Positions 38,978-58,673 of a DNA stretch of 64,000 nt are shown piece after piece. The notes beneath the pieces were generated by a model, which was not told where the DNA came from, made no database searches, and was given only the letters and a program-made list of their open reading frames with translations. Numbering within the stretch: the stretch's first letter is position 1; each line of letters starts with the position of its first letter. The stretch is from the NCBI RefSeq assembly GCF_001676785.2, contig NZ_CP015910.2, positions 2,976,001 through 3,040,000 of the forward strand, written 5' to 3'. A program made the position numbers and the translations under genes. The DNA comes from Brachyspira hyodysenteriae ATCC 27164 (GTDB lineage Bacteria; Spirochaetota; Brachyspiria; Brachyspirales; Brachyspiraceae).

Positions 38978-39775
38978 ATGAAAAAAATAATTTTATTTTT
39001 TACTTGTATATTTTCTATTTCATGCTCTAATGCAAATGAAAATGTTCATATTGTAAAAGTAGGATATATAGGAGAATCTGATAAAATTATTTGGGAAGAA
39101 GTTATGAAAAAAGTTTCTAATGATAATATAGAAATAGAACTTGTATCTTATATAAATTATTCTTCTCCTAATAAAGCTTTGAATGATGGAGAAATTGATT
39201 TAAATAATTTTCAGCATTATGCTTTTTTTAATAATGAATTAGAAACAAAAGGATATGAGTTAACTGCAATAGCGGATACATGTCTTGCTGCTATGAATAT
39301 ATACTCTGATAATATAACAAATATTAATCAAATTAAACAATATGATAGAATTGCCATACCCGATGATGATTCTAACAGAGGAAGAGCTTTAAAAGTATTA
39401 GAAGCAGCAGGACTAATAAAATTAAAAGATAAATATAAACTTAACCCTAGCATAAATGATATAGAAGAAAATAAACTAAATCTAAATATCATTGAAGTTG
39501 ATGCTGGAAGTATATATACTCTGCTTCCGGATATTGCATGCGCTGTAATTAATTGTAATTTTGCTTTAAACTTCGGACTTGATCCTTATAAAGATTCAAT
39601 ATTTAAAGATAGTCCAAGCAACTACAATGATAAGAACTATATAAATATTATAGCTGCTAGAACAAAAGACAAAGATAATGAGATATATAAAAAAATAATA
39701 GAAGCATATCAATCTGATGAGATTAAAAATATATATAATAAAAAATTTAAGGGTGTGTATATAGCTGTTTGGTAA
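38978..39775 (+). CDS. MetQ/NlpA-family substrate-binding lipoprotein (1 of 4)
   Basis: A 265-residue lipoprotein (signal ILFFTCIFSISC) of the NlpA family that delivers methionine-like ligands to MetNI. It keeps the motifs seen in the fourth, most typical copy: NNFQHYAFF, ADTCLAAMNIYS, PDDDSNRGRALKVLEAAG and the VDAGSIYTLLPDIACAVIN region. The ATG has no good ribosome binding site. The spacing and direction suggest it is co-transcribed with the dehydrogenase. Confidence 0.9.
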   Translation: MKKIILFFTCIFSISCSNANENVHIVKVGYIGESDKIIWEEVMKKVSNDNIEIELVSYINYSSPNKALNDGEIDLNNFQHYAFFNNELETKGYELTAIADTCLAAMNIYSDNITNINQIKQYDRIAIPDDDSNRGRALKVLEAAGLIKLKDKYKLNPSINDIEENKLNLNIIEVDAGSIYTLLPDIACAVINCNFALNFGLDPYKDSIFKDSPSNYNDKNYINIIAARTKDKDNEIYKKIIEAYQSDEIKNIYNKKFKGVYIAVW

Positions 39776-39806
39776 TTTAATTTTATAGTTTTAATGGGGG
39801 GAAACT

Positions 39807-40595
39807 ATGAAATCTTTATTAATATTTTTTTTATTGATTAATATTCTTTCTTGTAATGATTCTAATATTGATATTATTAAGGTAGGTCATATAGGAGAAT
39901 TTGATTATGATATATGGCAAAAAATAGACGAAGAATTACAAATTGAAAATGCCAAATTGGATCTGGTATATTTTGAAGATTATGAAATTTTAAATAAGGC
40001 ATTAGATGACGGAGATATAGATTTGAATTCTTTTCAAAACTATTTATATTTTGTAAATGAAACTAACAAATATAATTATAATCTTCATATTTTAGGAAAA
40101 ACTTTTGTGGCTCCTATGAATATATACTCAAAATTTATAACTAATATAAATCAAATATCATCGAATGCTAAAATAGCTATTCCTGATGATGAAGTCAATC
40201 TATCAAGGGCATTGCAAATATTAGAGGTGGCAAATATAATAAAACTTGAAAGATTTGATAACCATTTTTATAATATATCTAATGTCATAGAAAATAATTT
40301 AAATATTCAGATTATACCTATGGATGCTAGTATAATTTACTACAATATGGATAAAGTTGATGCCGCAGTTATAAATTACGGTTTCATTTCAGATTATATA
40401 AATTATAAAATTATTTTTTATGATGATATAACGCAATATTCACATATGGGTATGATGTCATATGCAAATCTGATTGTATGCAGAGAGAAAGACAAAAATT
40501 GTAATCTTTATAAATTTATAGCAGAAAGCTACAGACAAAAAATAAGAAAAAATATAGAAAAAAATATATTAGACGGTCTCATAGCAGTTGACTAA
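39807..40595 (+). CDS. Divergent MetQ/NlpA-family lipoprotein (2 of 4)
   Basis: 262 residues, lipobox NILSC. It is homologous to the other copies (KVGHIGEFDYDIW, ALDDGDIDLNSFQNYLYF), but the ligand pocket motifs differ. FQH has become FQN, and the usual N-x-GRAL segment is DDEVNLSRALQILE. The third copy shares both changes, so copies 2 and 3 form a diverged pair likely to bind something else. GGGGGG lies before the ATG. Confidence 0.87.
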   Translation: MKSLLIFFLLINILSCNDSNIDIIKVGHIGEFDYDIWQKIDEELQIENAKLDLVYFEDYEILNKALDDGDIDLNSFQNYLYFVNETNKYNYNLHILGKTFVAPMNIYSKFITNINQISSNAKIAIPDDEVNLSRALQILEVANIIKLERFDNHFYNISNVIENNLNIQIIPMDASIIYYNMDKVDAAVINYGFISDYINYKIIFYDDITQYSHMGMMSYANLIVCREKDKNCNLYKFIAESYRQKIRKNIEKNILDGLIAVD

Positions 40596-40615
40596 TATTA
40601 GTATAGGAAATATAT

Positions 40616-41404
40616 ATGAAAAAACTATTATTTATTTTATTTTTATTATCATTTATTATTTCATGTAATTGCAAAAAAGATGAAGTAGTAAAAATAGGAT
40701 ACATAGGAGAGCTTGATATGAGTATATGGGAATATGTATCCAATGAAATGAAAGAAAAAAATATTATTTTGGAATTAATACAATTTTCAGATTATTCTAT
40801 AATAAATAAAGCTTTAAATAGTGGACATATAGATTTAAATCATTTTCAGAATTACGCTTACTTTGTTAATGCCACAAATAAAAATGATTATTATTTGAGC
40901 ATTATAGATAAAACATTTATAGCTTCTATGAATATGTATTCAAAAAATTTAACCAATCTATCTCAATTGCAGCTTAATTCTAAAATAGCAATTCCAAAAG
41001 ATGAAGTAAATTTATCCAGAGCTTTAAAAATATTAGAATCTATAGGATTATTAAAATTAACTAAAAAGGATAATATCAATTATAATTTTACTACAAATGA
41101 TATAAGAGAAAATTATTTAAAATTAGAGTTTGTAGATGTAGAAGCAGACGATGTTTATTCTGTAGTATCTTTTGTTGATGCTGCTTTCGTTAATCTCAAT
41201 CTTAATTTTGATTTTAAAGATTCAAATATTTTATATTATGATGATCCTAGCAAATATGATTCTGATATGTATATTAATCTAATAGCTGCAAGATTAGAAG
41301 ATGAGGATAACAGTCTTTATAAAACTATAGCTGAAGCTTATAAAAAAAGAATAAAAGAGGTTGTAGAATCAGGAAAATTAGAGGGAATTATCATCAATTA
41401 TTAA
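40616..41404 (+). CDS. Divergent MetQ/NlpA-family lipoprotein (3 of 4)
   Basis: 262 residues, lipobox FIISC. It is closest to the preceding gene, sharing NHFQNYAYFVNATNK and KDEVNLSRALKILES where methionine-binding members have FQH and N-x-GRAL. It begins 20 bases after the second copy, preceded by TAGGAA, and is probably in the same transcript. The ligand is unknown, and no separate permease is present, so it would have to share MetNI. Confidence 0.87.
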   Translation: MKKLLFILFLLSFIISCNCKKDEVVKIGYIGELDMSIWEYVSNEMKEKNIILELIQFSDYSIINKALNSGHIDLNHFQNYAYFVNATNKNDYYLSIIDKTFIASMNMYSKNLTNLSQLQLNSKIAIPKDEVNLSRALKILESIGLLKLTKKDNINYNFTTNDIRENYLKLEFVDVEADDVYSVVSFVDAAFVNLNLNFDFKDSNILYYDDPSKYDSDMYINLIAARLEDEDNSLYKTIAEAYKKRIKEVVESGKLEGIIINY

Positions 41405-41410
41405 TAGTTT

Positions 41411-41440
41411 TTATTGAAATTATTCAAAAAATAATATAAT
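41411..41440 (+). promoter_or_regulatory. Internal promoter before the fourth MetQ gene
   Basis: TTGAAA, 15 bases and TATAAT lie in the only sizeable gap (78 bases) of the lipoprotein array. This suggests that the last, most typical binding protein can be made independently of the operon. Confidence 0.45.
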
Positions 41441-41482
41441 CTAAATAAATTAATTTCATTAAAATTTTATAAAGGAGCGAAA

Positions 41483-42298
41483 ATGAAAAAATTTTTATTA
41501 TTGGTATCATCAGCCATATTATCATTAATGATATTATCATGCGGAAATACTTCTTCTGGTGATCAAAAGATAGTTAAAGTTGGTTTTGCTGGAGAGTCTG
41601 ATTATCAAATTTGGGATCCTATAGTAGCTAAATTAGCTGAAGAAGGAATTAAAGTAGAGCTAGTATCTTTCTCTGATTATACTATACCTAATCAGGCTTT
41701 GAATGACGGAGAAATTGACTTGAATGCTTTTCAGCATTATGCATACTTTAATGATGAAGTATCAAATAAAGGATATGACTTAACTGCTATTGCTGATACT
41801 TATATATCTGCTATGAATATTTATTCTACTAATATTACTGATGTAAAAGAATTAAAAAACGGCGATAAAATAGCTATACCTAATGACCCTTCTAATGGAG
41901 GAAGAGCTTTAAAAGTTCTTCAGGCTGCAGGAATCATTAAAGTAAAACCTGAAGCAGGAGATACTCCTAGCGTAAGCGATATAATAGAAAATCCTTTAAA
42001 CATTGAAATAGTTGAAATGGATGCGGGTGCTATTTACGGTGTTCTTCCTGATGTTGCTTGTGCTGTTATCAATGGAAACTATGCTATAGACTTCGGTTTG
42101 AATCCTGGTTCTGATTATATATTCAAAGATGATCCTTCTATTTACAGCGGAAAATCTTTTGTTAATTTAATAGCTGCAAGAACTAAAGATAAAGATAATG
42201 AATTATACAAAAAAGTTGTAGAAACTTATCAATCTGAAATAGTAGAAAAAGTTTATAATGAAAATTTCTTAGGTTCTTATCTTCCTACTTGGAAATAA
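41483..42298 (+). CDS. metQ: Methionine-binding lipoprotein MetQ (4 of 4)
   Basis: A 271-residue NlpA-family lipoprotein with the most typical sequence of the four. The signal ends in MILSCGN, and the mature part has KVGFAGESDYQIWDPI, NAFQHYAYFND, PNDPSNGGRALKVLQAAG and PDVACAVINGNYAIDFGL. It is the best candidate for the true methionine-binding partner of MetNI. AAAGGAG precedes its ATG, an internal promoter lies upstream, and a strong terminator follows. Confidence 0.92.
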   Translation: MKKFLLLVSSAILSLMILSCGNTSSGDQKIVKVGFAGESDYQIWDPIVAKLAEEGIKVELVSFSDYTIPNQALNDGEIDLNAFQHYAYFNDEVSNKGYDLTAIADTYISAMNIYSTNITDVKELKNGDKIAIPNDPSNGGRALKVLQAAGIIKVKPEAGDTPSVSDIIENPLNIEIVEMDAGAIYGVLPDVACAVINGNYAIDFGLNPGSDYIFKDDPSIYSGKSFVNLIAARTKDKDNELYKKVVETYQSEIVEKVYNENFLGSYLPTWK

Positions 42299-42336
42299 TA
42301 TAAATATTAATTGAATAATATTTGAATTATAAAAAG

Positions 42337-42372
42337 AAAAGCATGAGATTTTTATTATCTCATGCTTTTTTA
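42337..42372. terminator. Bidirectional terminator between metQ and the PTS operon
   Basis: The AAAAGCATGAGAT / ATCTCATGCTTTT perfect 13-bp stem has a 7-base loop and T-rich tails on both strands, between convergent transcription units. Confidence 0.85.
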
Positions 42373-42400: not shown

Positions 42401-42829
42401 TTAATCTAAATCGATATCATCATCTTCTTCATCTAAAGAAGGCTCTAATATAGCATCTTTACCTGTACTCATTATATCATTAACCAATTCATTAATATCT
42501 TCTTTATCAGATGAAAAATATTCTAATAACATAGAAAAATTCATTCCTGCTATAAGTCTAATATTAAATTTATTTTTCTCTTTTTTTGAAAATATATTTC
42601 CTATATTAAAAGGAGTTCCGCCATATAAATCTGCTAATATTATAATATCTTTCACATCATTCATTTCATCTAAGCAGCTTTGTAATTTTTTGGAAGTTCC
42701 TTCAAATCCGTCATCAGCTGACATGCATACTGTACGATATCCTGAAACTTCTCCTAATATCATTTTAGCAGATTCCATTATTTCATGAGCAAAATTACCA
42801 TGGCTCATAAGTATTAAACTAGGTTTCAT
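42401..42829 (-). CDS. PTS mannose-class EIIA component
   Basis: A 142-residue cytoplasmic phosphocarrier of the mannose/sorbose family. The phosphorylated histidine is in LMSHGNFAHEIMES, and DLYGGTPFNIG is the other family motif. The C-terminus ends in a run of Asp and Glu. It receives phosphate from HPr and passes it to the EIIB encoded four genes upstream. Its ATG directly abuts the stop codon of the serine hydrolase gene, with GGAGG inside that gene, so it is translationally coupled as the last gene of the operon. Confidence 0.92.
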   Translation of the reverse strand: MKPSLILMSHGNFAHEIMESAKMILGEVSGYRTVCMSADDGFEGTSKKLQSCLDEMNDVKDIIILADLYGGTPFNIGNIFSKKEKNKFNIRLIAGMNFSMLLEYFSSDKEDINELVNDIMSTGKDAILEPSLDEEDDDIDLD

Positions 42830-43792
42830 TTATTCCTCCATAAATATTTTATTAATTTCTTCTCTCAATTCTAAATAGGTATTATTATTTCTATTGGGGT
42901 GAATTCTGTTTGTAAGAACTATCATAGCCTCTTTAGAATTTAAATTTATTAATATAGAAGTTCCTGTAAAACCTGTATGATATAAAGTATATTTTCCATA
43001 TCTTTTATCCCAGCCTAAAGTTCTATCTCCAAAATTAATATCTATTAATTTTTTTATTGAACTATGAGATAAAATTTTTTCATCGTCTTTTAATATAGAA
43101 CAAACAAAAATATTTAAATCTTCAAGCGTAGAAAATAATCCTGCACTTCCTATCTCTCCTAAAGCATAAGCTTTGGAGTCATGAACTTCTCCGCATATTA
43201 TTCCTCTTTTATCTGTAATCTCAGTTGGTATGCAGTAATATTTATTTGAAGGATAATATGAAGTATTATTCATATCAGCAGAATTAAAAATATAATCTTT
43301 AAATGCTTTATCTAAATTGAGATTTGTAATATTTTCTATTATAAATCCAAGTATAATAAAGCCTATATCAGAGTATATTGTTTTATGATAGTTTTCTTTA
43401 TTTATAATAGTGTTATTAAATATTTTATTTCTATCTATATTGGTTTTATCTTCTAAATCTGCTTTAAGTCCTGAATTATGAAGCAGAAGCTCTTCTATAG
43501 TAATATTTTCATCTTTGAAATTACTGCAGAATTTAACAGCTTTATCATATAAATTGATTTTACCTAAATCCAATAATTTAAGCATCATTGAGGCAGTACC
43601 TACAACTTTTGTAAGCGAAGCTAAATCATAAATACTATTACTATCAACTTTATTTAAATTATTAGTTCCGTAAACACCTATATAATTATTTTTAATATAA
43701 TTGTCTTTTATAAAACTATATGAAGCATTATATACGATATTATTTTCTACCGCTTTATTCAACATAGATGATATAGTGTCAAATTTATCCAC
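42830..43792 (-). CDS. Cytoplasmic beta-lactamase-fold serine hydrolase
   Basis: A 320-residue member of the class C beta-lactamase/esterase fold. The S-x-x-K nucleophile is in DLASLTKVVGT, the Y-x-N-like element is in YHKTIYSDIGF (YSD), and an HTG triad (LYHTGFTGTS) stands in place of KTG. There is no signal peptide, unlike AmiE, the exported relative in the Bacillus MurNAc operon. The start is GTG 43792, with AAGGGA 6 bases upstream. Its position between murQ and EIIA suggests it acts on imported muropeptide fragments. That is inference. Confidence 0.78.
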   Translation of the reverse strand: MDKFDTISSMLNKAVENNIVYNASYSFIKDNYIKNNYIGVYGTNNLNKVDSNSIYDLASLTKVVGTASMMLKLLDLGKINLYDKAVKFCSNFKDENITIEELLLHNSGLKADLEDKTNIDRNKIFNNTIINKENYHKTIYSDIGFIILGFIIENITNLNLDKAFKDYIFNSADMNNTSYYPSNKYYCIPTEITDKRGIICGEVHDSKAYALGEIGSAGLFSTLEDLNIFVCSILKDDEKILSHSSIKKLIDINFGDRTLGWDKRYGKYTLYHTGFTGTSILINLNSKEAMIVLTNRIHPNRNNNTYLELREEINKIFMEE

Positions 43793-43823
43793 AGTAATCC
43801 CTTTAAGTATAAATTATAATTTT

Positions 43824-44732
43824 TTAGGCACTTTTAGCTTTTTCTATAGCTATTCTCACCATGTTATTAGATTCTTTCAAAAGTTTCTGAGCTTTATCTT
43901 TATCTATAGAAGCCTTATTCATTATTATTGATACAGCAACAGATTTTCCGGATTCTTCAAATAATTTAGATGACTTTTCTATGTCAAGCCCTGTTATTGA
44001 AGATATCATTCTTACAGCTCTAGTTTCCAACTTTTTATTTGTAGGAAGCACATTAACCATATAGTTTCCGTACACCATTCCTGATTTTATCATCACACCT
44101 GTTGAAATACTGTTTACAACCATCTTAGCAGCTGTTCCAGATTTCATTCTAGTAGAACCAGATATTACTTCAGCCCCTACTATAGGAGTAATAACTATAT
44201 CAGCAGATTTCTCAACATTTTCATTTCTATTTGATGATATCATCACAGTTAATGCCCCTACTTCTTTCGCATAATCTAATCCTCCTAATACATAAGGAGT
44301 TCTTCCGCTTGCAGCTATTCCTACAACGCAGTCTAAATTAGAAAGTTTGCAATTTACTAAATCTTCTCTTCCTAATTCTCTTGAATCTTCTGCGCCTTCA
44401 ACAGCTCTGTACATAGCTTCTTTTCCGCCTGCTATGAGTCCGAAAGCTCTTTCAGGTGAAACATTGTATGTCGGAGTAAGCTCTACTGCATCTAAAGTAC
44501 CCATTCTTCCAGATGAACCGGCACCTATATATATTAATCTGCCGCCTTTTACATATCTTTTTGCTATTTCATCTATAGCTTTTGCAATATTTTCACTTTC
44601 TTTGCCTACTGCCTCAGCAACTTTAACATCTTCAGAATTTATTATCTTAACCATTTCTATAGTACTTAAAGCATCTATATTCTTAGAATTTTCATTTACA
44701 GATTCTGTTACAAGATTATCTAAATTTTCCAT
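43824..44732 (-). CDS. murQ: N-acetylmuramic acid 6-phosphate etherase
   Basis: A 302-residue SIS-fold lyase that cleaves the lactyl ether of MurNAc-6-phosphate to GlcNAc-6-phosphate and D-lactate in peptidoglycan recycling. Characteristic motifs are GAGSSGRMGTLDAVELTPTY, the catalytic glutamate in VEGAEDSRELG, GIAASGRTPYV and SGSTRMKSGTAAKMVVN. GGAG precedes the ATG. Its place in a PTS operon with an RpiR regulator defines the likely substrate of the transporter. Confidence 0.96.
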   Translation of the reverse strand: MENLDNLVTESVNENSKNIDALSTIEMVKIINSEDVKVAEAVGKESENIAKAIDEIAKRYVKGGRLIYIGAGSSGRMGTLDAVELTPTYNVSPERAFGLIAGGKEAMYRAVEGAEDSRELGREDLVNCKLSNLDCVVGIAASGRTPYVLGGLDYAKEVGALTVMISSNRNENVEKSADIVITPIVGAEVISGSTRMKSGTAAKMVVNSISTGVMIKSGMVYGNYMVNVLPTNKKLETRAVRMISSITGLDIEKSSKLFEESGKSVAVSIIMNKASIDKDKAQKLLKESNNMVRIAIEKAKSA

Positions 44733-44753
44733 ATTTTATAACTCCATGTATAC

Positions 44754-45611
44754 TTATTCTTCATCATCTAATTTTAATTCTCTAGTTAGAATGCTTGTAT
44801 TTATGAGATTCTCTTTTATATTTTCAAAGTCTTTCTGTATAGCTCCGAAGTATAAAAGATCGCTCACAATAAGAGATGAATATTTTGAAGTAATAGCACC
44901 CATTCTGGTAAGCTCTTCATTATTAGGAACAGTGATCAAAACATCAGCCATCTTAGAAAGATTATTTGTTTTCTTTCTTGTTACAGCTATTATAGATGCT
45001 TTTTTTGAAGAAGCTATTTTCACAGGATAAATAACTTCATTAGTTCTGCCGCTATATGAAAAGGCTATAACTACATCTTCCTCTGTAAGATAATTAAAAA
45101 ACTCAGCATTTAAATGTGCATCTTCATAAAAGAAAGCATTGAAATTTGCTCTCTTAAGTTTATGAAATAAATCATAAGCTGATATAGAAGAAGCTCCTAT
45201 ACCAAGCATATATATATTTCTTGCATTTCTTATTAGTTTAAAAGCCTTCTCCAAAGCCTCTTTATCTAATTGATAGAAAAAGTCTTCATTAGAGGATTTT
45301 ATTAAAAGCATAATCTTATTGCATAGTTCTTCTACATTATCATCAGCTGATATTATGGTATTGATATTATATTTATTATCATCCTCACCATTTTTACTTG
45401 CTATAGATATTTTAAGTTCATCTAATCCCTTAAACCCAAGATCCTTAGCAAATCTAACCACAGAAGCAGATGATACTCCGCAGTTTTTTGAAATATCTAA
45501 TGCAGTTAATTTAATAACCTCTTTTGGGTTTGACAAAATATAATTAGATATTTTCTTGTATGCTTTACTAAAATCTTCGTATTTATCTCTTATTATTAAA
45601 TATGCATTCAT
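44754..45611 (-). CDS. RpiR-family transcriptional regulator (MurR-like)
   Basis: ~285 residues. The N-terminal RpiR helix-turn-helix (ISKNCGVSSASVVRFAKDLGF) is followed by a SIS sugar-phosphate domain (YMLGIGASSISAYDLFHKL, IAFSYSGRTNEV). MurR proteins of this family respond to MurNAc-6-phosphate. It lies between EIIB and murQ and probably controls the operon through the twin palindromes upstream of the EIIC gene. ATG 45611 is preferred over GTG 45620, which immediately follows the EIIB stop. Confidence 0.9.
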   Translation of the reverse strand: MNAYLIIRDKYEDFSKAYKKISNYILSNPKEVIKLTALDISKNCGVSSASVVRFAKDLGFKGLDELKISIASKNGEDDNKYNINTIISADDNVEELCNKIMLLIKSSNEDFFYQLDKEALEKAFKLIRNARNIYMLGIGASSISAYDLFHKLKRANFNAFFYEDAHLNAEFFNYLTEEDVVIAFSYSGRTNEVIYPVKIASSKKASIIAVTRKKTNNLSKMADVLITVPNNEELTRMGAITSKYSSLIVSDLLYFGAIQKDFENIKENLINTSILTRELKLDDEE

Positions 45612-45622
45612 TTTTACCACTC

Positions 45623-46099
45623 TTATTTTAAATATGCTTCTATAGATTGATCGGATTCATTTGGAAGCATTTGAGCAGTTACTTTTATACCATCGGCTAT
45701 CATATCTTTTATTAATGCTATATCTTCATCTGTAAGGTTTACAGATTTCTTTATTTGCACAGAGCCTTCTTTTTTAGCTACATTACCAATATTAACAGTT
45801 TCTATAGGTACGCCGTCTTTGATTATCTTATTCATATCTTCTATATTTTTAGTTATTAAAAATATTTTATCTTCATCATATACGCCTTCTTTAAACTTTT
45901 CTGCAGCTTTAGCTTTTGATAATATTGATAATTTTACTCCTGCAGGTTTTGATATTTTTAAAGCGGCTATTATAGTTTCATCTTTAACAGCCTGATCATT
46001 AACTACAGCTATTCTTGTAGCTCCTACAGTATTTGTCCATACCATAGCAACTTGTCCATGTATTAATCTTTCATCTACTCTAGCATTTACTATACTCAT
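45623..46099 (-). CDS. PTS mannose-class EIIB component
   Basis: A 158-residue cytoplasmic EIIB. The phosphorylated histidine lies in VDERLIHGQVAMVW near the N-terminus, the invariant mannose-family motif. The C-terminal part (GNVAKKEGSVQIKKSVNLTDED) is normal. It transfers phosphate from EIIA to the sugar during uptake by the EIIC-EIID pair encoded just upstream. Same operon: 31 bases after EIID and 11 bases before the regulator. Confidence 0.94.
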   Translation of the reverse strand: MSIVNARVDERLIHGQVAMVWTNTVGATRIAVVNDQAVKDETIIAALKISKPAGVKLSILSKAKAAEKFKEGVYDEDKIFLITKNIEDMNKIIKDGVPIETVNIGNVAKKEGSVQIKKSVNLTDEDIALIKDMIADGIKVTAQMLPNESDQSIEAYLK

Positions 46100-46130
46100 A
46101 TTATTATCTCCTTTTTATATATTTTAAAAA

Positions 46131-46958
46131 TTATTTACTAAATAAACCAATAACAAAATCAAGCATTCCTTGAGAATTACCCAATACCATTCCTATTGCT
46201 ATTATTACTACGATCAAATGAGTAGAATTAAATTTCTTCTTACCCAATAGCCAATAAGAGAATAATACTACAAGAAGCGGTATTAATGAAGGCATTATCT
46301 TATCAAGCATTGACTGTATATCCAAAGAAACCTCACCTAAATTGAATGTAAGATTAAGTTTATAAGTTATAACAGATGCTATTAATCCGCCTACAACTGT
46401 TAATCCCAAAATAGCAGCTCCTTCTGTTATAGGTGCTATAGAATTGGCAAATCCTACTGCCAATTTTTTACTTTGATTGTATCCAAGATAAGTAAATTTA
46501 TATCTTAGAAAAAGTACAGCTAAACATGCAAATACTGGTACTATTAATCCTATAGCATTTCCGTCTAATGCCACATAAGAAGCAATAGAAAATACTATAG
46601 CTCTATATATAGCAAGAAATAAAGTATCGCCTACGCCGGCAAAAGGTCCCATTAAACCTGTTTTCAAACTAGATACAGCCTCTTCAGATTTTTCACCTAA
46701 ACTCTCTTCCAAAGCCATATCTGCCCCTATTATAAGGTGAGACATTGCAGGAGTGGTATTGAAATATCCTAACTGCATTTTTAAAGCTTTTTTCATTCCT
46801 TCAGGATTATTTTTATATATTCTTTTTAAGGCAGGCATTATTACCCAAGCATATCCTAATCCCTGCATTTTCTCATAATTCCATCCCCATTGAAATCCGA
46901 ATAAATTTCTAACATATACTTTATTAATATCGCTTTTAGTTAATTTATTATTTTCCAT
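46131..46958 (-). CDS. PTS mannose-class EIID component
   Basis: A 275-residue membrane component found only in mannose-family PTS. It has FQWGWNYEKMQGLGYAWVIMP, NTTPAMSHLIIGADMALEE, and GLMGPFAGVGDTLF, the family signature. The C-terminal helix IPLLVVLFSYWLLGKK follows. Together with EIIC it forms the translocation channel. Spacing of 31 bases on both sides supports co-transcription. Confidence 0.95.
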   Translation of the reverse strand: MENNKLTKSDINKVYVRNLFGFQWGWNYEKMQGLGYAWVIMPALKRIYKNNPEGMKKALKMQLGYFNTTPAMSHLIIGADMALEESLGEKSEEAVSSLKTGLMGPFAGVGDTLFLAIYRAIVFSIASYVALDGNAIGLIVPVFACLAVLFLRYKFTYLGYNQSKKLAVGFANSIAPITEGAAILGLTVVGGLIASVITYKLNLTFNLGEVSLDIQSMLDKIMPSLIPLLVVLFSYWLLGKKKFNSTHLIVVIIAIGMVLGNSQGMLDFVIGLFSK

Positions 46959-46989
46959 TTATTAACTCCTATTTTATTAAAATGAATTA

Positions 46990-47796
46990 TTATCCGTCTA
47001 TTTCTATTTCATCATCATCAGAAGCTGAATTACCTGCTGTCTCTTTTACAACTGTTTTATCCATTGTTCTATAATAATTAAGAGAAGCAAAAGCAAATCC
47101 TAATAAAGCTACAGCTAGTACAGTCATGTTTCCGCCGCTGAATGCTATAGCTACAAAACCTATTATGAAATAATAGAAATATTTTTTTAATGGTAAATAT
47201 CTCATAAGTATTGCAATACCCATTGCAGGAAGTAAAGCTCCGGCAGCCTTTAATCCGTTCATAAACCAATCAGGTATGAAATTATTTATAGTCTGTATTA
47301 CTGTTTCTCCGAAAAACAATCCTATAAATACAGGTATTACCCTTGATAATACCCATGGAAAAATACCTAGTACATTGCACATCTCTACTCCTCTGTAATT
47401 ACCTTCCTCTGCATATCTATCTGCTTTGTGCTGGAATATCAAGTTAGTCATTCTTCCTAAAATATCAAGCTGTGTTAATAAAAGTCCTATAGGAACGGCT
47501 ATAGCTATTCCGTATTCAGCACCCCTTTGTGAAATTATCGCATAAGAAGTACCTATTATTGCTCCGGATAAATAATCAGGAACTGTGGCTCCTCCATAAG
47601 TAGCTACTCCTAATGTGGCTAATTGCAAAGTAGCGCCTATAAATAATCCTGATTTTAAATCTCCCAACAAAAAACCTGTAAAAGCAGCAGCAAATAATGG
47701 TGTATATACGCCTATTTGTATAGAAATTTGATCTAATACGCCTATTACTGTGTATATACATAGTATTAGAATTACTACAGAAGATAATTCTTGCAT
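46990..47796 (-). CDS. PTS mannose-class EIIC component
   Basis: A 268-residue membrane component with repeated hydrophobic helices. Family segments are TPLFAAAFTGFLLGDLKSGLFIGATLQLATLGVATYGGATVP split across two helices, and the later GAEYGIAIAVPIGLLLTQLD. A short acidic tail ends the protein. It is the first gene of the operon EIIC-EIID-EIIB-rpiR-murQ-hydrolase-EIIA, preceded by TAGGAG and by a promoter flanked by two operators. Confidence 0.94.
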   Translation of the reverse strand: MQELSSVVILILCIYTVIGVLDQISIQIGVYTPLFAAAFTGFLLGDLKSGLFIGATLQLATLGVATYGGATVPDYLSGAIIGTSYAIISQRGAEYGIAIAVPIGLLLTQLDILGRMTNLIFQHKADRYAEEGNYRGVEMCNVLGIFPWVLSRVIPVFIGLFFGETVIQTINNFIPDWFMNGLKAAGALLPAMGIAILMRYLPLKKYFYYFIIGFVAIAFSGGNMTVLAVALLGFAFASLNYYRTMDKTVVKETAGNSASDDDEIEIDG

Positions 47797-47819
47797 AAAA
47801 CATACTCCTAAAATATTTT

Positions 47820-47877
47820 TGTAATTATATTACATTAATTAAAATATTATACGTAAATAATGTAATTTCATTACATT
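47820..47877 (-). promoter_or_regulatory. Promoter and twin palindromic operators of the MurNAc PTS operon
   Basis: Site 1 (47820-47834) is TGTAATTATATTACA. Site 2 (47859-47877) is AATGTAATTTCATTACATT. Both share TGTAAT-N3-ATTACA. Their centres (47827 and 47868) are 41 bp apart, four helical turns. Between them, on the minus strand, lies TATAAT (47846-47851), whose -35 region falls inside site 2. This arrangement suits repression by the encoded RpiR regulator (inference). Confidence 0.75.
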
Positions 47878-47968
47878 TTAATAGTATACATAAAAAATCT
47901 GCTATTGCAAGTTTTTTTTATAAAAAATTCAAAATTTATCAATATAATTTTTTAATTTTAAAAAACCT

Positions 47969-48297
47969 CACTACATACCCGCCCTTTTATATTGGCATGT
48001 TCATTACATTCATAGACTAATTAATATTTAATATCAGTTTATAAAAGCAAGCCCGCCCAAAATTTAATTAGGTTTTATATCCTCATACCGCACGGTGAGC
48101 AGATTTTTCAATATAATGAAATTTGTATTATTAATTGATTAAAATTCTTCGATTGGTTTACCGTGCGTTTCATAAGTTACAAATTTAAAAAAAGCTTGGG
48201 TGGGTTTTAATATTTCTATATTTGTATTTAAGAAAAATAAGGTAAAAATTTCATAGTTATTTTTATAAGAATAAAGGGAGGGATATGTAAATAAATT
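47969..48297. repeat. Intergenic modular element, copy 10 (two units sharing one F)
   Basis: The order is reversed compared with copies 2 and 5: C-modules first (CTACATACCCGCCCTTTTA at 47970, AGCCCGCCCAAA), then a single F module (48087-48169, ACCGCACGGTG ... TTTACCGTGCGTTT), then G-modules at 48198 (GGGTGGG) and 48276 (GGGAGGG), 78 bp apart. Bases 48298-48454 hold only the leader of the next gene. Confidence 0.88.
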
Positions 48298-57281: not shown

Positions 57282-58673
57282 TTAATTTTTTTTAGCAGAA
57301 AACTTTTTCCAAAAACCTAATACCAAAGCAGTTATAACAGAACCTAAAATTATTATTCCAGTATATAATAGAGGTTTATTTGTTATAGGTATTACAAATA
57401 TACCGCCATGTGAAGCCATCATTACTATATTAAAATACTGAGTTAAGAATCCTGAAACCATAGCACCTATTACAGATGAAACTATTACTCTTACAGGGTC
57501 TGATACAGCAAAAGGAATTACACCTTCTGTTATAAAGCAAGCACCTAAGAAATAACAAGTTTTACCAGCTTTTCTTTCTGTTTCAGTAAAGTATTTAGCA
57601 AATAATGTTGTACATAAAGCTATTCCCAAAGGCGGAACCATTCCCCCTGCCATCATAGCACTCATGAAATCAGCATTTCCTGAAGCAAAAGCAGCATTTG
57701 CAAATAAACCAGCTGTTTTATTTATAGGTCCTCCCATATCAGTAGCCATCATTCCTGCTACTATTAATCCTATAATTCCTTTGTGAGAAGCACCTATTCC
57801 GTTTAAGCCTTGAACCATTAAATCCATCAATTTAGCTATAGGCATAAATACAGGCCATAATATTAAACAAGTTAAAATCAATCCGAATAAAGGATATAAT
57901 AATGCACCTTTCAAACTAGAAATAGATTTTGGTATATTCTTTAATACTTTTTTCAATAGTATTGCTACATATCCTGCTACAAAGCCTGCTAATATACCGC
58001 CCAAGAAACCTGTTTTATAATAGTTTGCTAATAAACCAGCAACCATACCAGGCATGAATGCAGATTTACCTCCAACACTATTAGCAATATAAGCAGATAA
58101 TATAGCAATGATTAAACTGAAAGCTCCAACTTTTCCTCCACCTATTGTATCAAAGAATCCTGCTATAGGATTATAATCAGGTGATTCAGGATTTGAAGCA
58201 GTTATTCCAAATGCAAATGAAATACCAATACATATACCTCCAGCAATAATAAATGGAAGCATATTTGAAAATCCTGCCATTAAGTGTTTATATATTCCTT
58301 TTCTTGAAGAAGTTTGAAGAAGATCATCTAAATCCTCGTCTCCAGATGCTTCTAATGTATATGATTTAATATTTCCAGATATTATATTTTTTATAAGATT
58401 ATCAGAATTTTTCACAGCCTCAGTTACGGGAACTTCAATTATTTTTTTACCAATGAATCTATCTTTATTTTCAACAGGTTTATCAGCAGCAAATAAAACA
58501 TAATCTGCATTTTTTATGTCATCAGCAGTTAATGCATTTCCTATACCGTCAGATCCTTGCGTTTCAACTTTAATTTCAACATTGTTTGATGCTGCATATT
58601 TTTTTAAAGCATTGGCTGCCATATATGTATGAGCAACGCCTGTGGGACAAGATGTAATTGCTACGATTTTCAT
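57282..58673 (-). CDS. PTS fructose-class EIIBC
   Basis: A 463-residue fused EIIB-EIIC permease. The phosphorylated cysteine of EIIB is in ITSCPTGVAHTYMAANAL, just after the start. EIIC begins near residue 125 (GIYKHLMAGFSNMLPFIIAGG) and shows GGKSAFMPGMVAGLLA, GGPINKTAGLFANAA and EGVIPFAVSDPVRVI. It imports and phosphorylates a fructose-like hexose or alditol; the linked aldolase suggests a ketose-phosphate pathway. AAGGAG precedes the ATG. Same operon as the EIIA 46 bases upstream. Confidence 0.94.
   Translation of the reverse strand: MKIVAITSCPTGVAHTYMAANALKKYAASNNVEIKVETQGSDGIGNALTADDIKNADYVLFAADKPVENKDRFIGKKIIEVPVTEAVKNSDNLIKNIISGNIKSYTLEASGDEDLDDLLQTSSRKGIYKHLMAGFSNMLPFIIAGGICIGISFAFGITASNPESPDYNPIAGFFDTIGGGKVGAFSLIIAILSAYIANSVGGKSAFMPGMVAGLLANYYKTGFLGGILAGFVAGYVAILLKKVLKNIPKSISSLKGALLYPLFGLILTCLILWPVFMPIAKLMDLMVQGLNGIGASHKGIIGLIVAGMMATDMGGPINKTAGLFANAAFASGNADFMSAMMAGGMVPPLGIALCTTLFAKYFTETERKAGKTCYFLGACFITEGVIPFAVSDPVRVIVSSVIGAMVSGFLTQYFNIVMMASHGGIFVIPITNKPLLYTGIIILGSVITALVLGFWKKFSAKKN

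Follow-up and report, generated by a model that had tools for sequence, protein, structure and literature searches.

A mannose-class phosphotransferase system in a murQ operon of Brachyspira hyodysenteriae, a likely route for N-acetylmuramic acid or a fragment containing it

Introduction

What does a mannose-class phosphotransferase system (PTS) carry when its genes are interleaved with murQ, the gene for N-acetylmuramic acid 6-phosphate (MurNAc-6P) etherase? Uptake of N-acetylmuramic acid (MurNAc) by a PTS has so far been equated with the glucose-class permease MurP, whose operons are known from Escherichia coli (MurP with murQ, murR and yfeW), Bacillus subtilis (murQ-murR-murP-amiE) and Staphylococcus aureus (mupG-murQ-murP-murR). 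The question is raised by a locus of Brachyspira hyodysenteriae ATCC 27164 at positions 42401–47877 of a 64,000-nucleotide stretch of contig NZ_CP015910.2 (2,976,001–3,040,000, forward strand); the whole stretch is called the window and supplies the coordinates below. The genome of this pig-gut spirochaete includes a second contig of 32.6 kb, the first 20 kb of which are 98–99.6% identical to B. hyodysenteriae plasmids. A preliminary description placed there murQ, a MurR-like regulator and a serine hydrolase interleaved with the EIIC, EIID, EIIB and EIIA components of a mannose-class PTS. All of these are present and intact on the minus strand, and the right end at 47877 takes in both operators. 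A glucose-class EIIBC beside murQ, by which a MurP system is recognized, is not found, the operon encoding no glucose-class EII.

We consider it likely that these genes form an autoregulated operon for the uptake and catabolism of MurNAc or of a short MurNAc-containing fragment. The sequences themselves show which genes are present, how the operon is laid out, its operators, the conserved linkage and the lack of another evident MurNAc-6P source; the substrate, the reaction of the hydrolase, the inducer and the identity of the regulator on the operators are inferences. The core of the interpretation, that a PTS of the mannose class takes over the task of MurP here, is well supported.

Results

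One transcription unit with tandem operators

The seven genes run in the order EIIC-EIID-EIIB-MurR-MurQ-serine hydrolase-EIIA from 47796 down to 42401 (Table 1), and the family of each was assigned with Pfam and NCBIfam models. Because the intergenic gaps are only 0–31 nt (31, 31, 2, 21, 31 and 0 nt from EIIC to EIIA), operators lie upstream and a terminator follows EIIA, the EIIC-to-EIIA genes are, judged from the sequence, a single transcription unit. The operators are strong evidence for this; the candidate promoter is a pattern match only, and such promoter-like matches are no commoner in real sequence than in shuffles. The case that would have undone the proposal, a murQ merely adjacent and separately transcribed, was checked and is not what is seen: murQ lies within a tight single operon bounded by operators and terminator. 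The pattern TGTAATNNNATTACA has just two matches in the whole 3.07-Mb genome, both of them the operators upstream of EIIC.

Table 1. Features of the murQ operon and its flanks (window coordinates).
Feature	Position	Strand	Evidence
EIIC (mannose-class PTS, membrane)	46990..47796	-	PF03609, 243.9 bits; profile match to ManY 6k1h_Y, E 7e-31
EIID (mannose-class PTS, membrane)	46131..46958	-	PF03613, 282.2 bits; profile match to ManZ 6k1h_Z, E 7e-46
EIIB (mannose-class PTS)	45623..46099	-	PF03830, 163.6 bits; phosphorylated His in DERLIHGQ, read from sequence
MurR-like RpiR/SIS regulator	44754..45620	-	PF01418 and PF01380
MurQ, MurNAc-6-phosphate etherase	43824..44732	-	TIGR00274, 358.7 bits (cut-off 302)
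Serine hydrolase, beta-lactamase fold	42830..43792	-	PF00144, 109.9 bits; SxxK, YSD and HTG motifs; no signal peptide by eye
EIIA (mannose-class PTS)	42401..42829	-	PF03610, 65.4 bits; phosphorylated His in MSHGNF, read from sequence
Operator 1, TGTAATGAAATTACA	47861..47875	-	perfect palindrome
Operator 2, TGTAATATAATTACA	47820..47834	-	perfect palindrome, 41 bp from operator 1
Candidate promoter TTGCAA-16-TATACT	47883..47910	-	pattern match only; directly upstream of operator 1
Bidirectional intrinsic terminator	42335..42371		13–15 bp stem, T tracts on both sides; between EIIA and convergent NlpA gene

Conserved linkage of EIIC and murQ

The EIIC alignment alone was used to fetch 47 loci from GTDB genomes. 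Loci with an EIIC at least 52% identical number 45 when the window and every relative are entered a single time; two of these are cut by contig ends, which leaves 43 assessable. murQ stands on the same strand in 42 of these 43, its start 2.1–5.9 kb from that of EIIC; MurR is present in 40 and the serine hydrolase in 30. Among 11 mannose-class EIICs with no more than 45% identity, not one has murQ within the stretch read. The linkage is thus no accident of one genome and goes far beyond chance. Its carriers are Breznakia, Enterococcus, Vagococcus, Bacillus chungangensis, Lachnospiraceae, Hungatella, Lactococcus, Lacticaseibacillus, several lactobacilli, Oscillospiraceae and Thermoanaerobacterales. 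Since a sister-genus locus (L043) keeps EIIC-EIID-EIIB-murQ-EIIA together without murR or the hydrolase, the transporter and MurQ are the core of the system.

The regulatory DNA is conserved along with the genes. The 45 loci hold 29 matches to TGNAATNNNATTNCA within 300 bp upstream of EIIC, against 0.08 expected, and only six further matches elsewhere. The sites are often paired, 38–41 bp apart, as in Brachyspira, and such tandem sites precede EIIC in Brachyspira, Lachnospiraceae, Enterococcus, Bacillus and others; L043, the locus that lacks murR, has none. We infer that the palindromes are bound by the operon's own regulator, which would resemble MurR in its mode of action, with palindromic operators at the promoter of its own operon. 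The regulator is an RpiR-family member that scores best with the generic MurR/RpiR NCBIfam model (154 bits, under that model's cut-off), and reaches 105 bits with the E. coli-type MurR equivalog NF012026 (cut-off 408). Its start is more likely ATG 45611, which matches relatives, than 45620.

A survey that started from murQ in the Breznakia phylum (40 loci read) found that most murQ loci there lack both MurP and a mannose-class PTS. The mannose-class PTS is one of several contexts of murQ. More distant mannose-class PTSs (31–40% identical) occur near murQ at L184, L186, L195 and L202, with a serine hydrolase in two of the four; the pairing with murQ may thus have arisen in more than a single mannose-class subclade. 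Viral contigs scanned with the EIIC profile yielded no relative. A TauE/SafE-family permease gene adjoins the operon in Breznakia, Bacillus, Vagococcus and Enterococcus (L047:7013-7795, L055:7052-7837, L056:9724-10503, L050:13265-14068) and could possibly export D-lactate or another anion.

Sources of MurNAc-6P in the genome

The genome has a single mannose-class EIIC, that of the operon. AnmK is absent, and no BadF-type sugar kinase was found, BadF-family matches being confined to one 1441-aa protein that is present in all tested Brachyspira. Of eight glucose-class EIICs, all outside the operon, comparison with spirochaete MurP covered seven and singled out none as MurP-like, the two best-scoring being trehalose and sucrose types by model score. 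The operon PTS is therefore the only evident source of MurNAc-6P. Another glucose-class observation is that one such EIIC of the genome (L143, G000:C1:1241404-1242342) is interrupted by TGA. EI of the PTS is present in two copies over the cut-off. For the steps after MurQ, NagA scores over its cut-off and the adjoining NagB-like gene under its own. The Brachyspira NagA (L141:8629-10593) is 654 aa long, with about 260 extra N-terminal residues that by eye resemble NagB, and the separate NagB-like gene beside it encodes 257 aa.

S. aureus handles MurNAc-GlcNAc, the physiological substrate of its MurP, by MurP together with MupG (PMC6262408), and a like function for the mannose-class PTS can be envisaged. 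Such a route requires intracellular MupG, mupG is found in none of the mannose-class operons, and the only MupG-like protein noted in the genome, which shares 30% identity with the protein encoded next to spirochaete MurP, adjoins a different PTS, of cellobiose type by its gene layout. Import of the disaccharide is accordingly very improbable.

Comparison of the components with known systems

With the MurP systems of E. coli, B. subtilis and S. aureus the operon shares MurQ, an RpiR-type regulator, a PTS permease and MurNAc-6P as the expected product; with those of E. coli and B. subtilis only, it shares a beta-lactamase-fold serine hydrolase beside the permease. Unlike all of them, it has a permease of the unrelated mannose family (EIIC, EIID, EIIB and a dedicated EIIA) and a hydrolase that lacks an export signal, and it contains no MupG or NagZ. 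At the positions of the catalytic Glu83 and Glu114 of E. coli MurQ, all 52 aligned sequences have Glu, the window protein included.

As in ManXYZ and AgaBCD/AgaVWEF, all four mannose-family (TC 4.A.6) domains are present with their His phosphorylation motifs (SHG, LIHGQ); the Pfam scores of EIIC and EIID lie far over their cut-offs, and those of EIIA and EIIB also exceed theirs. By sequence, the nearest solved structure is that of E. coli ManYZ. EIIC and EIID are about 24–36% identical to the E. coli mannose-family proteins and fall in a separate, murQ-linked clade. Residues conserved specifically in this clade, EIIC Thr61 and Ala65 (opposite ManY ALGWMNIGAAVAPD in the alignment) and EIID Ile117 and Pro141, are candidates for the sugar pocket, picked from conservation only.

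The hydrolase, like AmiE of B. subtilis and PBP4B/YfeW of E. coli, is a beta-lactamase-fold SxxK serine hydrolase encoded with murQ. Its S59xxK62, Y140-S-D142 and His272-x-Gly274 are invariant in 18 aligned sequences, most of the family being 320–350 aa long. The predicted structure (pLDDT 90.5) matches 6kjh with Z 34, and the fold search returned the general beta-lactamase/esterase fold, favouring no particular reaction. Among named models PBP4B is the best (83.7 bits, cut-off 385; about 26% identity to YfeW). Unlike AmiE and PBP4B/YfeW, neither the protein nor its relatives have a hydrophobic N-terminus when judged by eye, without a signal-peptide predictor, and we predict that it is cytosolic. 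In lactobacilli a second, class-A-like serine hydrolase (PF13354) lies in the operon or right after it (L081:13976-14740, L091:12292-13023, L079:9793-10578).

Origin of the operon in Brachyspira

True MurQ is uncommon among spirochaetes, scoring over the cut-off in 13 of 296 Spirochaetota genomes and in only 3 of 26 from Brachyspira; in two other spirochaete genomes (L036, L039) murQ accompanies a MurP-like EIIBC of the glucose class and a MupG-like gene. Both the EIIC and the MurQ tree nest Brachyspira in a Bacillota clade, beside Breznakia and Lachnospiraceae. In the close relative G072 the site is empty, the flanking genes being 1.1 kb apart as against 6.5 kb in the window. Because of this nesting and the empty site, the operon was probably gained by transfer from gut Bacillota. 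Simple orthologue replacement inside the spirochaetes was also considered and is ruled out by the two trees. The preliminary description needs correcting here: this is a Bacillota system, probably acquired by some Brachyspira, and not a spirochaete peculiarity.

On the EIIA side, four NlpA/MetQ-family lipoprotein genes stand in a row on the plus strand (38978–42298), and the whole array also lies beside the operon in G093. Intergenic repeats with CACCGTGCGG/CGCACGG and GGGCGGG motifs occupy 47960–48260 and likewise adjoin the G093 copy (L041:11400-12200); they may be a MITE- or REP-like element close to the point of insertion.

Discussion

The proposed pathway would begin with phosphate relayed from EI and HPr to EIIA and on to EIIB, while the sugar enters through EIIC/EIID and is phosphorylated at C6. 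Any peptide or acyl group on the imported fragment would be removed by the cytosolic serine hydrolase, after which MurQ would convert MurNAc-6P to GlcNAc-6P and D-lactate; NagA and the NagB-like protein, encoded elsewhere in the genome, would lead onward to glycolysis. The MurR-like protein would act as repressor on the two operators just downstream of the promoter, until released by MurNAc-6P.

Several observations weigh against this assignment. No named family model marks the PTS as MurNAc-specific, the best being AgaW (GalNAc), far under its cut-off. One locus of the 43 (L083) keeps the PTS and the hydrolase and has no murQ. The exclusion of other MurNAc-6P sources covers seven of the eight glucose-class EIICs, all but the one at 57495–58277, and the AnmK and BadF kinases, though not a ROK-type MurNAc kinase. 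Mannose-class PTSs are, moreover, often promiscuous and varied in specificity, and in B. pilosicoli WesB a mannose/sorbose-class PTS, absent in two other strains, was proposed for the use of D-mannose and L-sorbose (PMC3532143). The operon PTS could import a different substrate, a hexose or amino sugar such as mannose, GlcNAc or GalNAc, co-transcribed MurQ only clearing MurNAc-6P from turnover of the cell's own wall. The WesB genes, however, are four consecutive loci (wesB_1269-1272), whereas here EIIA lies apart from EIIC-EIID-EIIB; that system is probably one of the compact paralogues found in other Brachyspira genomes, which have 27–41% EIIC identity and no murQ. As no AnmK or BadF sugar kinase, and among the seven glucose-class EIICs compared no MurP-like transporter, was found that could supply MurNAc-6P, and as murQ accompanies the close EIIC clade so constantly, we regard another sugar as improbable.

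The relation to MurP weighs on the substrate in a further way. A MurP-like EIIBC (313–336 bits) is encoded in 10 of 21 Bacillota genomes with the operon, the best match in the other 11 reaching 194 bits at most, which rules out strict mutual exclusion of the two; since both coexist, the substrate may not be plain MurNAc. In each of the ten genomes MurP lies apart from the mannose-class genes, in an operon that has a murQ of its own; mupG is part of this operon in eight of them and the serine hydrolase in none. The claim that a mannose-class system imports MurNAc or a MurNAc-containing fragment is supported by linkage conserved in many families, conserved tandem operators, the single transcription unit and the lack of another evident MurNAc-6P route in this genome; the system is not simply a substitute for MurP, since roughly half of the Bacillota genomes tested encode both.

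A narrower form of the preferred explanation is possible, if rather less than probable: the PTS would take a MurNAc-peptide (e.g. MurNAc-L-Ala-D-Glu/iGln) and not free MurNAc, phosphorylating it on entry, and the cytosolic hydrolase would cut the MurNAc-L-Ala amide, a bond that exported AmiE of B. subtilis cleaves extracellularly. To our knowledge no PTS takes peptide-bearing sugars, which counts against it; so does the absence of the hydrolase from 13 of the 43 operons, and the hydrolase fold spans esterases and beta-lactamases besides peptidases. In its favour, the hydrolase family shows no signal peptide by eye, as against AmiE, which is encoded with murQRP in B. subtilis and acts outside the cell (PMC5061867). 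The division of partners agrees, coexisting MurP operons carrying MupG and never the hydrolase, mannose-class operons often the hydrolase and never MupG. An NlpC/P60 peptidase gene adjoins one operon, and an additional enolase-superfamily gene in two lactobacilli scores best with the model for L-Ala-D/L-Glu epimerase, a match in these two genomes only and under the cut-off (213–216 bits against 500). The fuller proposal, of a widespread muropeptide PTS distinct from MurP that imports and phosphorylates intact MurNAc-peptides, has a cytosolic serine amidase free MurNAc-6P for MurQ, is carried by gut and lactic-acid Bacillota and was transferred into Brachyspira, is in our view somewhat unlikely as a whole.

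For uptake of MurNAc or a short fragment containing it, the wider reading that we prefer, no mannose-class MurNAc PTS is described in the open literature searched, subscription journals being outside this coverage. Comparative genomics points to a second, previously uncharacterized way of feeding on peptidoglycan fragments that recurs in many gut and lactic-acid bacteria. If this is correct, bacteria that have murQ and no MurP would be explained by a mannose-class alternative, and many 'mannose/sorbose' PTS annotations could be relabelled. Gut bacteria would then consume peptidoglycan fragments by another route and, should MurNAc-peptides be imported, would moreover deprive the host sensor NOD2 of ligands.

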